From Vicinamibacteraceae bacterium (GTDB taxonomy: Bacteria; Planctomycetota; Phycisphaerae; Phycisphaerales; UBA5793), in NCBI GenBank assembly GCA_011525805.1, contig WYBR01000114.1, forward strand, positions 1 to 64,000: DNA of 64,000 nt, read 5' to 3'. The first letter of the stretch is position 1; every line of letters begins with the position of its first letter. Under the pieces are notes generated by a model. It did not search any database, was not told the origin of the DNA, and worked only from the letters and a program-made list of their open reading frames with translations. The position numbers and the translations under genes were made by a program. This document shows, piece by piece, positions 3,234-64,000 of this stretch.

Positions 3234-3271
3234 GGTCCGCGCCCGACCGCCGGGCGGTCCGCGCGCGGACC
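3234..3271 (+). terminator. Long two-tier hairpin between pilZ-like and fapA-like genes
   Basis: Outer arms GGTCCGCGC (3234-3242) and GCGCGGACC (3263-3271) enclose inner arms GACCGCC (3245-3251) and GGCGGTC (3253-3259). The whole 38 nt forms an almost continuous stem. No T-run follows, so it could be a terminator, an RNA stabiliser or a leader structure. Confidence 0.4.
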
Positions 3272-3365
3272 CAACGCGGCTCGCGGTGGCGGGCCGATGC
3301 GCGTGTGCGGCAATGGGCAGGAGGCCGAGCGGGGGGATGGACCGGGCAGCGACAAGGGTTACCCA

Positions 3366-4805
3366 ATGGGGCAGCACTCCGCCCAGGCCGAACTCCAGGT
3401 CATCGTTGCAAAGGACGCCCAGTCCGCCGAGTTGTCGATTCCCCCCAACCTCAGCGCCGAGCAGATGACCGTCGAAGCGCTCACCGCGGCCCTTCAGACC
3501 GCGCAGGTCGAAATCACCCCCGCCGTCACCGAAGCCCTCGAACGCATCGCCTCCGAGCCGCGCTGCGAGTCTCCTCCCTGCCGCGTCGTCGTCGCGCGCG
3601 CCACGCCGCCGGTGCATGGCGTGGACGGGCGCGTCGAATGGCTCGTCGATGAAGGAAGCCCGGCGCCCGTCGACGAACACGGCAACATCTGCTTCTACGA
3701 GCAGTCCGCCTTCACGATGGTCACGGCCGGCCAGGTGCTCGGCCGCGTCGTGCCGCCGACGCAGGGCGTCGAAGGCCGCGACGTCTTTGGCAAGCCCATC
3801 GCGGCCAAGAACGGCCAGCCCGCCGACCCCAAACTTGACGAGACCATCGCCCACAACGAGAACGCCGATCTCGTGGCTCAGATCGCCGGCGTCTTCACAC
3901 GCAAGGGGCCCAAGCCCACCATCCGCGAACTGCTCGAAGTGCAGGGGTGCGTCGACTTCTCCACCGGGAACATCAACTTCGACGGCGAAGTGTCCGTGCG
4001 CGGCGGCGTGCGCGACCTCTTCCGCGTCGTCGCCACCGGACGCATCGAGATACGCGGCCTCGTCGAGGCGGCGACCGTTGAGTGTGAAGGCGACCTCATC
4101 CTCGCCGGCGGCATGGCCGGTCGCGAGCACGGACTCGTCCGCGCCGGCGGAAGCGTCACCGCACGCCACCTCAGCGCTTCGCGCCTCATCGTCCGCGGCG
4201 ATCTCAACATCGACAAGGAGATGATGGGCTGCCACGCCACCGTCAGCGGCCGCGTCCTGTGCCCAAAGGGATCGATCCTCGGCGGACGCCTCGTCTGCTC
4301 GCGCGAGTGGAACGTCGCCGTCTTCGGCAGCCAGGCCGGCGTCGAGACCATCATCGAACTCGGCTCGCTTCCCCTCCTCCGCGCCCGCGTCACCAAACTC
4401 GACGACGTCATCGACCAGCACCTGCACGTCCTGCGCACCCTCGTCGGCGAGCGCGAGGCGGTCGCGAGGCAGAGCGCCCGGCCCGGCTCGCGCGTCGGCG
4501 AACGCCTCCGCGCCGTCACCGCGGAGATGCACCGCGTCAACGAGGAACTCAAGGCCGCCCGCCACGAGCGCGAAGAGGCCGAGGCGCTCATCGCCAACCT
4601 CAAGGTCTTCACCGGCACCGTCACCAAATGCCTGCACGCCGGCACCATTTTCGCCGTCGGCCGGCGCCTGCTGCGCGTCTACATGGATGTGCTCGGCCCG
4701 CTGCAGATCACGGTGGCGGAGAGCGGCCAGATTCTCGTGCATCCCGAAGACGCCGCCGCCATCCCGCTCGACAAGATTGCCCGCCCCTTCGGCCTCGCGG
4801 CGTGA
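3366..4805 (+). CDS. FapA-family (DUF342) protein
   Basis: A 479-residue protein of the DUF342/FapA family ('flagellar assembly protein A' in databases). The diagnostic stretch is PPVHGVDGRVEW near residue 79 and PPTQGVEGRDVFGKPI near 132, followed by a parallel beta-helix-like run of V/I/G-rich repeats (about 200-345). A charged helical segment follows (about 360-430, with a coiled-coil-like EELKAARHEREEAEAL), then a short terminal sheet. The start was set at ATG 3366 with AAGGG upstream; an earlier in-frame ATG at 3297 would add 23 residues unlike the family. The family has roles in flagellar and cell-surface assembly, but no flagellar gene is nearby, so the role here is open. Confidence 0.85.
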   Translation: MGQHSAQAELQVIVAKDAQSAELSIPPNLSAEQMTVEALTAALQTAQVEITPAVTEALERIASEPRCESPPCRVVVARATPPVHGVDGRVEWLVDEGSPAPVDEHGNICFYEQSAFTMVTAGQVLGRVVPPTQGVEGRDVFGKPIAAKNGQPADPKLDETIAHNENADLVAQIAGVFTRKGPKPTIRELLEVQGCVDFSTGNINFDGEVSVRGGVRDLFRVVATGRIEIRGLVEAATVECEGDLILAGGMAGREHGLVRAGGSVTARHLSASRLIVRGDLNIDKEMMGCHATVSGRVLCPKGSILGGRLVCSREWNVAVFGSQAGVETIIELGSLPLLRARVTKLDDVIDQHLHVLRTLVGEREAVARQSARPGSRVGERLRAVTAEMHRVNEELKAARHEREEAEALIANLKVFTGTVTKCLHAGTIFAVGRRLLRVYMDVLGPLQITVAESGQILVHPEDAAAIPLDKIARPFGLAA

Positions 4806-4967: not shown

Positions 4968-7136
4968 ATGCCGCTCGAAATATGCACTCGGCCCGCGATG
5001 GGATCGATCTTGGTTCGCACACTTCTCATCGCACTTGCGATGCTCCCGACGCCCTTCGCCGCGGGGCAGTCGAACTGCGTTGATTGGATGCTCAAGGCTG
5101 ATGTGTCGCTCGAGTGGCCGAGGCCGCGCAATGTCCCCGCCGTGGCCTATGACCGGCTGCACGGCCAGACGCTCATCATGGGCGGCTACGGGGGAGAGCC
5201 GCTCAGCGAGACGTGGGGCTGGGATGGACAGGAGTGGACTTTCTTCTCCGAGGGCCAACCCACGCCGCGCTATTCGCATTCCATGGCCTACGACACCGGT
5301 CGCGACACCGCGGTGCTCTTCGGAGGGTATGAAAGGCGGGACACTTGGGAGCGCGGCCCTTCGGGCGTGTGGACGCTGGCCGCGACGACCGGCCCTTCTC
5401 CTCGCACTTCAACAGCGATGGTCTACGACTCCAGGCGCGGCGTTACCGTGCTCTACGGCGGATACTCGTCAAGCGGGTTCAGGCTGGGCGACACCTGGGA
5501 GTGGAATGGGTCGACCTGGACCCAGGTGGCGAACACGGGCCCCGCGCCGCGAAGTTCTCACGCCATGGCCTATGACAGCGCGCGCGGAGTCACCGTGCTC
5601 CATGGCGGCTCCACGAACGCCGGGCGAACCTCGGATACCTGGGAATGGGACGGGACGACCTGGACGCTCGTCGATGAGATCGGGTTCGGACGGCGCTCCT
5701 ATCACCAGATGGCGTTCGACGAGGCGCGCGGCGCAAGCCTGCTCTTCGGCGGGTCGGACGAGACGTTCCGGCGGTTCGACGATCTCTGGTCATGGAATGG
5801 CAACGAATGGACGCTCCTGGCGCCAACGGGTCCGGGGCCGCAGGAGTTCCCTCGCATGGTCTACGACAGCCTGCGAGACCGGACGGTGCTTGTGACTGGC
5901 GCCGACCAGGGCCGCGTCCTCTGGGAGTGGGATGGCCAGCGTTGGACGGACCATCGACCGTCCGGCCTGGGCCAAAGCACCTACCACGCAATGGCCTACG
6001 ACAGCAACCGGCGTGTCACCGTTCTCTTTGGCGGATACACCAGCGATGGCCTGAGCGGAAAAACCTGGGAGTGGGACGGGCGGGAGTGGACGCCTGTCGC
6101 CGAAACCGGCCCTTCGCCACGATCGGGTCACGCGATGGTCTACGACAGCCGACGGCGCGTCGTCGTGCTCTTCGGCGGCAATCGTCTGGCCGACCTCTGG
6201 GAATGGAACGGAGAGACTTGGACGGAGATTCACGCGAGCGGGCCGACCGGTCGCAGCGGCCATGCCATGGCCTTCGACTCGCGCCGCGGAGAGATCATTC
6301 TCTTCGGCGGAATTGGCCCAGGGTTTCAACGTGACACCTGGGCGTACCGCGACGGACGATGGGTCTTTGTTACCAACCGCGGGCCAAGCGGCCGCACCGG
6401 CGCTCGCATGGCGTACGACCCCATCCGCGACAACGTCGTTCTCTACGGCGGATACTACGACGACTCCGAAAACTACTACGTCTACGACGAGACGTGGATT
6501 CTCGATTCACACGGCTGGCGCGTCATCCGCGACTCCCCGCCGGGTCCGCTGGTCTGGCACACCATGACCTTCGACCCGGATCGCGGCGCTGTGCTGATGC
6601 ACGGCGGCTCCTACACCGTCCGCGACGACACGCTCCGCGATGAACTCTGGCAGTGGGATGGCAGCGCCTGGACGCTGCTGAGCAACGTCGGCCCCACGCC
6701 GAGAAAAGACCACGCCATCGCCTATGACGCCCATCGACGCACGCTCGTGCTGTTCGGCGGCTGGGACAATCAGCCGTGGAATCGCGGCGACACATGGGAG
6801 TACGGCCACATCGTCAACCCCTCACTCACACTCGACACCTCCTGCCCACAGTCCGGCCCGGCCGTGCTCACCTGGTCCTGCGCCACGCCCGGCGGGACCG
6901 TCGGACTCGCCTTCTCGCCGCGCCTCGGCGCGTTCCGCATCCCCGACGGCCAGCCCTGCGCCGGCACCTGGATCAACCTGCATCCGCAGGGGCTGCTGCT
7001 CCTCGGCACCGCCCGCTCAAACCAGCAAGGCGGCGGCACGATCAACGGCGCCCTCCCCGCCCGCGCCTGCGGCGGATTCCTCCAGATGATCGACGCCACC
7101 CCGTGCGCGGTGAGCGGCACAGTCAGGATCGAGTGA
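4968..7136 (+). CDS. Secreted Kelch-repeat protein, copy 1
   Basis: A 722-residue exported protein. AAGGAGGG at 4955-4962 supports the ATG at 4968. A hydrophobic signal segment ends near AAGQ (about residue 34). Twelve Kelch-like units follow, each with a (A/V)(Y/F)D(S/x)xRxxxVLFGG core and a TWEWxGxxWT tail, enough for two six-bladed propellers or one large array. Residues 617-722 form a separate C-terminal domain with cysteines in TSCP, PCAGT, ACGGFLQ and TPC, shared with three other exported proteins in this window. It is a tandem paralogue of the next gene. Such propellers usually bind proteins or glycans at the cell surface; the ligand is unknown. Confidence 0.85.
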   Translation: MPLEICTRPAMGSILVRTLLIALAMLPTPFAAGQSNCVDWMLKADVSLEWPRPRNVPAVAYDRLHGQTLIMGGYGGEPLSETWGWDGQEWTFFSEGQPTPRYSHSMAYDTGRDTAVLFGGYERRDTWERGPSGVWTLAATTGPSPRTSTAMVYDSRRGVTVLYGGYSSSGFRLGDTWEWNGSTWTQVANTGPAPRSSHAMAYDSARGVTVLHGGSTNAGRTSDTWEWDGTTWTLVDEIGFGRRSYHQMAFDEARGASLLFGGSDETFRRFDDLWSWNGNEWTLLAPTGPGPQEFPRMVYDSLRDRTVLVTGADQGRVLWEWDGQRWTDHRPSGLGQSTYHAMAYDSNRRVTVLFGGYTSDGLSGKTWEWDGREWTPVAETGPSPRSGHAMVYDSRRRVVVLFGGNRLADLWEWNGETWTEIHASGPTGRSGHAMAFDSRRGEIILFGGIGPGFQRDTWAYRDGRWVFVTNRGPSGRTGARMAYDPIRDNVVLYGGYYDDSENYYVYDETWILDSHGWRVIRDSPPGPLVWHTMTFDPDRGAVLMHGGSYTVRDDTLRDELWQWDGSAWTLLSNVGPTPRKDHAIAYDAHRRTLVLFGGWDNQPWNRGDTWEYGHIVNPSLTLDTSCPQSGPAVLTWSCATPGGTVGLAFSPRLGAFRIPDGQPCAGTWINLHPQGLLLLGTARSNQQGGGTINGALPARACGGFLQMIDATPCAVSGTVRIE

Positions 7137-7191
7137 GGGATGGTGAAGTCGCGGTTTCGCAGACGCATGGTCTGCAGAGAAGAGGTCCGCA

Positions 7192-9357
7192 ATGCAACTC
7201 ACACGGCGAATCGCGCCCGCAGCGGGATTCATCATCGTTCGTCTCCTCATCATCACACTGCTGGTGCTTCCGACGCGCTCTGCCGCGGGACAGTCCAACT
7301 GCGTCGACTGGACGCTCAGGGCGGACGTCTCGCTCGAATGGCCGGAGCCGCGCGGCGCATTTGCGCTCGCTTACGACAGGCTGCACGGGCAGACACTGTA
7401 CGTCGCCGGCTATGGCCACGAGCCGCTGCGAGACACCTGGGGCTGGGACGGAGACCGATGGACCTTCCTCTCGGATGGTCAGATCACGTCTCGCTACTCG
7501 CACGCGATGGCCTATGACACCAGGCGCAACACCATGGTCCTGTTCGGTGGGCCGCTCCGCACCGACACCTGGGAACGCGGCCCATCCGGTGAGTGGCGTC
7601 AGGTGGCCACATCCGGCCCATCGAGCAGAATCAACTCGGCGATGGTCTATGACTCCCGCCGCGGCGTCATGGTACTCTTCGGCGGCGACGACAGTCGCGG
7701 CTTCAATCGAGGCGACACATGGGAGTGGAACGGATCAACGTGGACGCAGGTTTCGGAAACAGGTCCTGCCCCCCGCTTCGCGCATGCCATGGCCTACGAC
7801 AGCCGCCGCGGCGTAACCGTGCTGTACGGCGGATACGCGGGTGCAAGAATGTCGGACACCTGGGAGTGGAACGGCGAGACCTGGACGCTCGTGAACGAAG
7901 TCGGACTCGGGGCGCGCAATCATCACCGGATGGTGTTTGATGAAGCGCGCGGGGTCAGCCTGCTCGCCGGCGGCCTGGACGACGCGGCTCAACCCCGTGG
8001 CGACCTGTGGTCATGGGACGGGCAAGAGTGGCGGCTCGTCGCTCCGTCGGGTCCGGGAGATCACTTCGGTCATGGTCTGGCGTACGACAGTTCACGAGGC
8101 GTCACGGTCCTGATCGGCGGAGGCACCAGCGGCCGCAACGTCTGGGAGTGGGACGGGTCCGAGTGGACCCGCCACTTCCCCACCGACCTCGGGTCAACCA
8201 GATCGCATGCCATGGTGTACGATCCGGCGCGCCGGCGCACGGTGATGTTTGGTGGAAACACGACAGATGGCCTGAGCGGCAAGACCTGGGAGTGGGATGG
8301 GCGGGAGTGGACGCTTGTCGCGGAGACCGGGCCTTCGCCGCGCTCTGGCCACGCCATGGTCTATGACAGCCGCCGCCGCGTTACCGTACTTTTCGGTGGC
8401 AGCCGTCTGGCCGACCTCTGGGAATGGGACGGTCAGACTTGGACGGAGATTCACGTGAGCGGCCCGTCGGGCCGTGGCGGTCATGCAATGGCCTTTGACT
8501 CGCGCCGCGGCGAGATCGTCCTCTTCGGCGGCTTCGGCCCCGGCTTTAACCTTGACACCTGGGCGTACCGGGACGGGCGATGGGTACTTGTGACCCGACG
8601 AGGGCCAAGCAGGCGCACCGGCGCCCGAATGGTTTACGACCCCATTCGCGACAACTTCATTCTCTATGGCGGGTACTTCGACGACTCCGAAAACTACTAC
8701 GTCTACGACGAGACCTGGATTCTCGATTCACACGGCTGGCGCGTCATCCACAACTCGCCGCCGGGCCCGCTGGTCTGGCACACGATGACCTTCGACCCGG
8801 ATCACGGCGCTGTACTGATGCACGGCGGTTCCTACACGGCGCGCGAAGACACGCTCCGCGATGAACTCTGGCAGTGGGATGGGAGCGCCTGGACGCTGCT
8901 GAGCAACGTCGGCCCCACCGCGCGGATGGACCACGCCATCGCCTACGACTCGCATGAAAAACACCTCATCCTGTTCGGAGGCTTTGACAATCAGCCCGGC
9001 CAGCGCGGCGACACCTGGACCTACGGCCACATCGTCAACCCCTCACTCACACTCGACACCTCCTGCCCACAGTCCGGCCCGGCCCGGCTCACCTGGTCCT
9101 GCGCCACGCCCGGCGGAACCGTCGGCCTCGCCTTCTCGACGCGCCTGGGCTTCTTCCGCATCCCCGACGGCCAGCCCTGCGCCGGCACCTGGATCAACCT
9201 GCACCCGCAGGGCCTGCAACTCCTCGGCCTGGCGCACTCCAACAACCAGGGCGGCGGCACGATCAACGGCAACCTCCCCGCCCGCGCCTGCGGCGGATAC
9301 CTCCAACTCATCGACGCCGCAACCTGCGCCACCAGCAGCCCCGTCTTCATTGAATGA
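7192..9357 (+). CDS. Secreted Kelch-repeat protein, copy 2
   Basis: A 721-residue paralogue of the gene just upstream, with the same layout: signal peptide ending near AAGQ, twelve Kelch-like units and the same cysteine-bearing C-terminal domain of about 105 residues. The two copies differ mostly in the first half of the propeller. From about repeat 7 onward they are close to identical in protein and often in DNA, which suggests recent duplication with partial gene conversion. A GAAGAGG stretch lies upstream of ATG 7192. The 55-bp gap makes cotranscription with copy 1 likely. Function unknown; surface binding is inferred from the fold. Confidence 0.85.
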   Translation: MQLTRRIAPAAGFIIVRLLIITLLVLPTRSAAGQSNCVDWTLRADVSLEWPEPRGAFALAYDRLHGQTLYVAGYGHEPLRDTWGWDGDRWTFLSDGQITSRYSHAMAYDTRRNTMVLFGGPLRTDTWERGPSGEWRQVATSGPSSRINSAMVYDSRRGVMVLFGGDDSRGFNRGDTWEWNGSTWTQVSETGPAPRFAHAMAYDSRRGVTVLYGGYAGARMSDTWEWNGETWTLVNEVGLGARNHHRMVFDEARGVSLLAGGLDDAAQPRGDLWSWDGQEWRLVAPSGPGDHFGHGLAYDSSRGVTVLIGGGTSGRNVWEWDGSEWTRHFPTDLGSTRSHAMVYDPARRRTVMFGGNTTDGLSGKTWEWDGREWTLVAETGPSPRSGHAMVYDSRRRVTVLFGGSRLADLWEWDGQTWTEIHVSGPSGRGGHAMAFDSRRGEIVLFGGFGPGFNLDTWAYRDGRWVLVTRRGPSRRTGARMVYDPIRDNFILYGGYFDDSENYYVYDETWILDSHGWRVIHNSPPGPLVWHTMTFDPDHGAVLMHGGSYTAREDTLRDELWQWDGSAWTLLSNVGPTARMDHAIAYDSHEKHLILFGGFDNQPGQRGDTWTYGHIVNPSLTLDTSCPQSGPARLTWSCATPGGTVGLAFSTRLGFFRIPDGQPCAGTWINLHPQGLQLLGLAHSNNQGGGTINGNLPARACGGYLQLIDAATCATSSPVFIE

Positions 9358-30642: not shown

Positions 30643-31518
30643 CTACCTGATCTCCGCCGTGTTGCTTGTGCCGCACGTCGTCAGATCAAGGAGTTGCAGG
30701 AAGCCGCCGCAGGCGCCCGGGCCGATGTTGCCCTGGATCATGCGCGAGCCGCCCTGGCCGGCGCCGCCGGTGAAGGCGACCTGCAACTGATTGCTCGACA
30801 GGCCGAGCACCGTCCCGGCGCAGGGCCGGTTGTTGGGAATGACGAAGTTGCCCGCGGAGCGCGCGAAGAGCAGCGCGACCTGCCCGTTGGGCGACGCGCC
30901 TCCCCACTCGACGATGATCCCGCCTCCGCCCGGGCACTGCGCCGAGACGGCCAGGGTGATCCGCGAGGGCGCCGCGGCGATGACGCGGGCCATGAAGTTG
31001 ATCGGCCGGCCGTTCGGGTCCGTCAACTTCGTCCACGTCGAGCCGTTGCCAAACCAGGCGTAGTCGGGGCTGGAGCCGACGCCCGGCGGGTTGTAGTGCG
31101 GCAGTCCGGCGGCGACGGGGCGGGTGTCGGAAATCTGGATCGTCCACGTAAACGTGTCGGGAACTTCGATGTGCGGCACGTTGAACTGAATGAGGTCGTC
31201 CCCGCCGGTGAGGGGTACGTCGTTGCGCACCGCGCCTTCCCAGATGAGCGTGCCGGGCAACCCGTTGAGGCCGTCGTTGGCGTAGAGGCGGGGCTGGAGG
31301 TCGGCCGTACCCGCCTGTCCCTGCATCGAGACGCCGATGTGCAGTTCAGTGACGGTGCGCAGCGTCCCGGCCGCCTGCACCTCATCGCCGATCTGGAGTT
31401 GGGTGAAGGACCGCGTCTGGCTGCCGCTCGTCGTGTTGTCGTAGATGACGTCGGCCGTGGCGGCGTGGGCGGCGAAGGCAACCGCCAGCGCGGCGGGAAT
31501 GCGGAATCGACTGTTCAT
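30643..31518 (-). CDS. Secreted beta-sandwich protein with cysteine C-terminal domain
   Basis: A 291-residue exported protein. ATG 31518 has GAGGAG nine bases upstream and opens a signal peptide (FRIPAALAVAFAAHAATA). Residues 25-180 start VIYDNTTSGSQTRSFTQL and continue with strand-rich text of the kind seen in PEP-CTERM and 'choice-of-anchor' surface proteins, but no PEP-CTERM tail is present. Residues 185-291 form the four-cysteine domain shared with the Kelch proteins and the small protein at 55401 (AQCP, PCAGT, ACGGFLQ, TTC). Likely a surface or periplasmic binding protein; role unknown. Confidence 0.75.
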   Translation of the reverse strand: MNSRFRIPAALAVAFAAHAATADVIYDNTTSGSQTRSFTQLQIGDEVQAAGTLRTVTELHIGVSMQGQAGTADLQPRLYANDGLNGLPGTLIWEGAVRNDVPLTGGDDLIQFNVPHIEVPDTFTWTIQISDTRPVAAGLPHYNPPGVGSSPDYAWFGNGSTWTKLTDPNGRPINFMARVIAAAPSRITLAVSAQCPGGGGIIVEWGGASPNGQVALLFARSAGNFVIPNNRPCAGTVLGLSSNQLQVAFTGGAGQGGSRMIQGNIGPGACGGFLQLLDLTTCGTSNTAEIR

Positions 31519-55400: not shown

Positions 55401-55790
55401 TCACGGAAGTTGACGCACCGGAGAGGTCTCGCACGTCTCCAGCGAGATCGCCTGCACGTAGCCGCGGCAGGCGCCGCGCGGCAGGGTCAGGTCATAGGTC
55501 GCGTAGCCGAATTCGTCCGTGTGGAAGTTGATGAGCACGCGGATGTTCTGAGGGCTCAGCCCCAGCACCGTGCCGGCGCAGTAGCGGTAGCCGTTGGGAA
55601 TGCGAAGCGAACCGCGCGCTGTGGAGAACGCCACCGCCACCGTCGTCTCCGGCTCCCAGCCGGAGATGGTGAACGTCACCTCGCCGGGACACGTTCCCGA
55701 GACTTCCAGGTCGGAAGCCCGAGCGGGCTCGAGGCCGATGAACGAGGCAACGAGTGCAACTGCGGCGAGAATTCCGGTGAAACGGTTCAT
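55401..55790 (-). CDS. Small secreted protein made of the four-cysteine domain
   Basis: A 129-residue exported protein. AAGGAG seven bases before ATG 55790 fixes the start (a second ATG lies 15 bases upstream at 55805). A signal peptide (MNRFTGILAAVALVASFIG) is followed directly by one copy of the domain seen at the C-termini of the Kelch proteins and the protein at 30643: GTCPGEV, YCAGTVLGLS, ACRGYVQAISLETC. Here the domain stands alone, which suggests it is a true folding unit. Function unknown. Confidence 0.75.
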   Translation of the reverse strand: MNRFTGILAAVALVASFIGLEPARASDLEVSGTCPGEVTFTISGWEPETTVAVAFSTARGSLRIPNGYRYCAGTVLGLSPQNIRVLINFHTDEFGYATYDLTLPRGACRGYVQAISLETCETSPVRQLP

Positions 55791-63490: not shown

Positions 63491-63506
63491 CAGGAGGAGA
63501 TGAGAC

Positions 63507-64000
63507 ATGAGTCGTGGATTCTTGGTCACCGCGCTGGCGCTCTGGCTTGGCGCCGGTGCTTCAGCGGCTGAGGCCCAGCGGTACGATGTGATCGATCTGG
63601 GCACGCTCGGTGGAAACGACAGCGAGGCGCGCGGCCTCAACGGTCAGGGGCGCGTCGTCGGCTACTCCGACATCGTCGGGGGAGACGACCACGCCTTCTA
63701 CTGGGACGGCATTCAGATGGTCGATCTCGGAACGCTCGGCGGCCGCGAGAGCAATGCGCGCGCGATCAACGGCTCGGGAGTCATCGTCGGCCGCGCCGAC
63801 ATCAACTACTGGACTCAGCACGCGGTGCGCTGGCAGGGCAATCAGAAACTCGATCTGGGCACGCTCGGGGGGCTGCAGAGTTCGGCGTACGACATCAACA
63901 GTTCCAACCAGATCGTCGGCTGGGCGGACACCAACACCGGTGCGACTCGGGCCTTCCTCTGGCAGAACGGACAGATGAACGACCTCGGCACGCTCGGCGG
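63507..64000 (+). CDS. Exported HAF-repeat protein, partial
   Basis: AGGAGGA (63493-63499) precedes ATG 63507, 16 bases after the upstream stop. A signal peptide (LVTALALWLGAGASA) is followed by HAF repeats, each with a DLGTLGG core and an A(R)xINxxGxIVG step; four such cores are visible before the window ends. HAF-repeat proteins are extracellular, often with autotransporter or PEP-CTERM partners, and form beta-propeller-like arrays. The C-terminus is beyond the window. It is likely cotranscribed with the polymer cluster. Confidence 0.85.
   Translation, partial: MSRGFLVTALALWLGAGASAAEAQRYDVIDLGTLGGNDSEARGLNGQGRVVGYSDIVGGDDHAFYWDGIQMVDLGTLGGRESNARAINGSGVIVGRADINYWTQHAVRWQGNQKLDLGTLGGLQSSAYDINSSNQIVGWADTNTGATRAFLWQNGQMNDLGTLG

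Follow-up and report, generated by a model that had tools for sequence, protein, structure and literature searches.

The window, i.e. the whole 64-kb stretch of DNA analysed here, carries on its forward strand two neighbouring open reading frames, 4968-7136 (722 amino acids) and 7192-9357 (721 amino acids), which according to their Kelch Pfam matches and signal-peptide-like N-termini code for secreted Kelch beta-propeller proteins and are tandem paralogues of each other. Both end in a four-cysteine domain (type A) that occupies positions 6819-7133 in the first protein, where it reaches the stop codon, and 9040-9354 in the second, as delineated by alignment and by single-query and profile searches; the two caps are 84% identical. 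On the reverse strand, a frame at 30643-31518 codes for a secreted protein of 291 amino acids with an N-terminal beta-rich cargo region followed by a type A domain (30646-30960; alignment, profile search and AF2 model), and a frame at 55401-55790, recognised by single-query search, signal-peptide test and AF2 model, codes for a standalone protein consisting of a signal peptide and a single type A domain (55404-55715, delimited by alignment and used as input for the AF2 model). The 5′ part of a further signal-peptide-bearing protein lies at 63504-64000 on the forward strand, and a cysteine-less relative of the domain (type B) forms its end in the same open frame beyond the window edge, at contig positions 64521-64790.

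The four type A copies in the window, of about 105 residues each, have four cysteines common to all and 22 invariant columns in their alignment. With the standalone copy as query the other three are retrieved at E-values from 1e-14 to 2e-11, so that the shared motif pattern and the four cysteines, which an earlier note on this DNA had located in just these segments, are not a product of chance. The same note had spoken of four unrelated proteins; as the Kelch pair are tandem paralogues, the window holds three architectures and not four. In line with its expectation of many copies per genome, the standalone query gave 130 matches in the source genome overall and a profile of the four window copies gave at least 149, while an iterated profile applied to the stretches around the 130 single-query matches recovered about 150 domains, including the four of the window. 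Based on about 150 copies and about 47 predicted genes per 64 kb, it is estimated that roughly 4-5% of the genes carry the domain.

Sequence anatomy and predicted fold

The type A consensus reads C-P-G ... W-S-G-A-x-P ... G ... I-P ... C-A-G-T-x-L-G-L ... G ... A-C-G-G-Y-L-Q ... C-x-T-S-N-V-V-R/Q-I, and its end, TC-x-TSNVVRI followed by the stop, is a soluble strand. The cysteine columns 7, 42, 79 and 91 are occupied in 92, 98, 87 and 99% of the copies, respectively, and Q84 (95%) and S94-N95 (92 and 86%) are likewise among the most conserved positions. Amongst 234 distinct copies, C7 and C79 (C1 and C3) show 12 joint losses as against 5 and 4 single ones (Fisher 9e-13, a value inflated by the shared ancestry of the copies). 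Since these two cysteines are lost together, a pairing of C7 with C79 and of C42 with C91 is suggested, and the domain probably contains the two disulfides C1-C3 and C2-C4, which gives indirect support to the two disulfides proposed in the earlier note.

The C-terminal bias is pronounced, as 142 of the 145 copies with a readable end in this genome terminate no more than a few residues from the stop codon, and a protein almost always has a single copy. One of the three exceptions is the first copy in a two-copy protein and the other two are paralogues (L041:5257-6642 and L049:1159-2052) which extend beyond the four-cysteine domain by a further cysteine-rich C-terminal region of about 113 residues that may be another terminal module. 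By a simple home-made test, a signal-peptide-like start was found in 114 of 131 complete capped proteins compared to 43 of 186 neighbouring open reading frames. A search of the linker preceding the domain revealed no conserved cleavage site.

With respect to the fold, an AF2 model of the standalone copy based on 49 sequences predicts an eight-strand Ig-like sandwich (pLDDT 96.4), and in the model of the full 30643-31518 protein, whose N-terminal part is poorly predicted, the same strands recur offset by 186 residues (pLDDT about 90-98). The recurrence of the same strands in both models implies that the standalone and the fused copy share a fold, and the domain is thus predicted to fold independently, as had been supposed from the existence of the standalone copy. 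The idea of a donor-strand pilin was rejected, since the modelled sandwich lacks no strand and the standalone copies begin right after the signal peptide.

In Foldseek searches against the PDB and viral structures, all matches were to generic folds of the Ig/FnIII kind and none had an E-value below 0.001. The matches listed by VIA-align, i.e. Nir2, DHS dehydratase, A2ML1, neocarzinostatin and C-1027, are effectively tied (Z 8.0-8.4), so that the likeness may mean only a common arrangement. This also holds for the neocarzinostatin-type apoproteins (C-1027, actinoxanthin), which resemble the domain as secreted Ig-like sandwiches of about 110 residues and superimpose with a Z of 8.0-8.2 at about 2.5 A over 82-86 residues, although Ig-like folds unrelated to them score equally well. 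They differ in that the sequence likeness is not significant, that the domain here caps other proteins and that there is no evidence for a ligand; their Pfam profile has no match, one type B copy reached E 0.095 with the NCBIfam enediyne chromoprotein model, short of its cut-off, and when types B and C (the latter with two cysteines, see below) are compared with PDB sequences, neocarzinostatin-like proteins make up almost all of the best matches but none is significant (E 0.18-0.7).

Distribution, relatives and cargo

No credible match to Pfam or NCBIfam was obtained for 50 type A copies, nor for 30 copies of types B and C; type A also has no match among PDB sequences, a plasmid search gave no match for the domain, and no description of it was found in the literature searched. 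The earlier note, which knew of no name for it, therefore stands on this point. Type A is present in all six searched genomes of the taxonomic family of the source, representing two genera, with 77 to at least 149 copies each, and in none of 245 other genomes of the order. A diverged type A was detected in 20 of 21 genomes of a second planctomycete family, which have at most 29 copies each; of the copies read there, almost all end at the stop codon. A pattern search of contigs, the strict pattern of which misses the diverged second family, revealed relatives only in uncultured planctomycete MAGs; relatives of the source family include the MAGs UBA5793, KLAP200, PLA5 and PNC21.

In the same genome, type B and type C relatives are likewise found at protein ends, and in the loci that were read they finish at the stop codon or close to it. 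One type B copy used as query gave 54 matches in the genome, and profile-profile comparison links type A to types B and C (96.7%, E 4.5e-10). Of 392 genomes from the whole phylum, 58 contain types B and C, which are absent from the listed sister families. In four cases (L069/L222, L082/L221, L090/L219 and L103/L220), one to four standalone type A genes lie directly upstream of a gene for a large secreted propeller-like protein ending in type B. In two large array proteins an in-frame TAA/TAG replaces a tyrosine inside the terminal type B domain (L220:1627-1629 on the forward strand, and in L221 directly after the reverse-strand frame at 3258-4754), with the frame open to its proper end. Stop-codon readthrough or recoding is disfavoured as an explanation, because a relative in genome G002 has different stops at other sites, which makes gene decay likelier.

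The 103 proteins with a real N-terminal region fall into about 41 groups, comprising, e.g., Kelch, FG-GAP and SBBP propellers, subtilases, multicopper oxidase, CHRD, HAF repeats, and choice-of-anchor B and Q, and 27 copies consist of a signal peptide and the domain only, often in tandem arrays of two to four. In a tree of 121 copies, which rests on only about 100 columns and therefore gives rough counts, the standalone or fused state changes 13 times compared to 24 times after shuffling, and the seven large cargo labels change 20 times (minimum 6, shuffled 44). For the most part the caps hence stay with their gene, although some exchange appears to have taken place. Together with the generic fold, such tracking is what would be expected of a stabilising or ligand-binding Ig-like cap which has no role in location and was spread through gene duplication. 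However, the strict terminal position, the about 41 cargo groups and the exchange with a known sorting tag outlined below speak against such a cap, which is accordingly considered unlikely. The gene neighbourhoods of the capped loci revealed no candidate partner, as only ABC transporters, kinases and an array-associated propeller protein recur at more than three loci.

Exchange with PEP-CTERM and comparison with known C-terminal tags

For the N-terminal region of the 30643-31518 protein, a search of 101 genomes of the order found only one homologue outside the family, a sister-family protein (pairwise E 3e-11) whose C-terminus, VPEPATLTLLAVTGGMLLTRRHRSR, is by eye a PEP-CTERM tag, with a PEP-CTERM Pfam score of 17.7 bits that lies under the cut-off of 20.7. 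When 80 further sister-family PEP-CTERM proteins were read and their N-terminal parts compared with 230 cargo regions, five PEP-CTERM proteins, this homologue included, proved to have a domain-capped homologue (E 2e-21, 2e-9, 8e-7, 3e-6 and 1e-4). In the two best pairs (E 2e-21 and 2e-9) the homology extends on both sides up to about 25 residues from the tag, and the remaining three swaps (E 1e-6 to 1e-4) are partial alignments. As homologues of five cargo proteins thus carry PEP-CTERM, the domain most likely serves as a C-terminal localisation tag.

PEP-CTERM proteins number 0-9 per genome in the source family versus 34-123 in two sister families, where this range holds for five of the six genomes. 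The two tags do not simply alternate, since further families of the order lack the domain and are also poor in PEP-CTERMs. Across the order, the PEP-CTERM counts range from 0 to 123 per genome, and exosortases occur even in genomes without a PEP-CTERM match. An exosortase is found in all 21 genomes examined, with or without the domain, and its presence is therefore uninformative about the latter; on these grounds, and because the domain has no membrane helix, exosortase was rejected as its partner.

PEP-CTERM (PF07589) is a short motif followed by a membrane helix and a basic tail (PMC1569441). It resembles the present domain in being a C-terminal tag on diverse exported proteins, some of which are sister-family homologues of cargo capped here, but the present domain is folded and soluble, with about 105 residues and without motif, helix or basic tail, and none of 50 copies matches the Pfam PEP-CTERM model. 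MYXO-CTERM, the tag associated with myxosortase, consists of a short motif in three parts, has a single invariant cysteine and is borne by dozens of substrates per genome (PMC11980579); it is similarly a lineage-wide C-terminal tag, while its tripartite architecture is missing here, as no hydrophobic segment or basic tail of the MYXO-CTERM/GlyGly-CTERM kind follows the domain. Of the features of LPXTG/sortase substrates, the tail shows neither an LPXTG-like motif nor a helix or basic tail.

A further close parallel is the C-terminal domain (CTD) of type IX secretion system (T9SS) substrates (TIGR04183, Por_Secre_tail), which in the RgpB structure has an Ig-like fold (PMC4804311) and which likewise closes many unrelated Sec-exported proteins with an Ig-like beta-sandwich. 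The location at the C-terminus, the comparable size, the fold and the Sec signal peptide would all agree with a divergent substrate domain of a true T9SS (PMC4804311). However, the domain here has four conserved cysteines and belongs to a different phylum, and the NCBIfam T9SS tail model matches none of 50 copies nor, over its curated cut-off, anything in the six family genomes. No T9SS CTD, and no sortase-like partner of the kind considered in the earlier note, was identified, and T9SS membership was rejected as highly improbable. SprA_N had no match in 21 genomes, though the control genomes gave none either. The position of a C-terminal tag is consequently of a known kind, shared with T9SS CTD, PEP-CTERM and MYXO-CTERM, while the domain is a different family without known machinery.

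A putative localisation tag and its significance

On balance, we lean towards the domain being a C-terminal localisation tag of Sec-exported proteins in this planctomycete family, in the form of an autonomous, disulfide-stapled Ig-like beta-sandwich. This reading is modestly favoured by the C-terminal position, which is kept in the second family, by signal peptides in 114 of 131 proteins, by the about 41 cargo groups, by the PEP-CTERM swaps and the low PEP-CTERM numbers in this family, and by the predicted autonomous fold. Of the three roles named in the earlier note, i.e. sorting, anchoring or ligand binding, the first two are therefore favoured by strict position, cargo diversity and swaps, if not proven. 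A Sec-type signal peptide would bring the proteins into the periplasm, where the domain would fold, probably with the disulfides C1-C3 and C2-C4. An envelope machinery or a cell-surface ligand might then recognise the folded surface instead of a peptide motif, and the cargo would thereby be retained at the outer membrane or moved beyond it. The domain would in this way take the slot that PEP-CTERM has in sister families, as seen for a few cargo families. The standalone copies might be small proteins of the cell surface that share this address, or units onto which capped proteins are attached; the existence of 27 copies without cargo is nevertheless odd for a pure address label. Further points against this reading are the linkers, in which no cleavage site is conserved, the gene neighbourhoods, in which no candidate partner recurs, the partial alignments behind three of the five swaps, and the families of the order that are poor in both tags.

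More tentatively, the domain might mark the substrates of a planctomycete system not yet described, which would move proteins exported by Sec, in their folded state, over the outer membrane or onto it. Such an analogue of the T9SS would recognise a disulfide-stapled Ig-like cap and have about 200 substrates per genome if types B and C are included.

Ig-like folds are frequent binders of other molecules. An alternative hypothesis, possible but rather doubtful, accordingly assumes a module for surface assembly or matrix binding, in which the domain binds itself or a component of the cell wall, matrix or S-layer, no export machinery reads it, and the standalone copies form or coat a layer into which the capped proteins plug. 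The 27 standalone copies, often two to four in tandem, and the arrangement, seen four times, in which standalone genes immediately precede the gene of a large secreted protein ending in type B are in favour of this scenario. However, a binding module should also be repeated within single proteins and occur elsewhere than at their end, and only 3 of 145 copies are non-terminal.

To our knowledge, little is known about how proteins are placed on the unusual planctomycete envelope. That a domain so frequent in one genome is absent from sister families and from both Pfam and NCBIfam suggests a route of sorting or anchoring which annotation overlooks. The domain provides a defined tag, a list of substrates and a phylogenetic profile for finding the partner machinery. 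A profile model of the domain would, in addition, annotate hundreds of exported proteins now termed "hypothetical".
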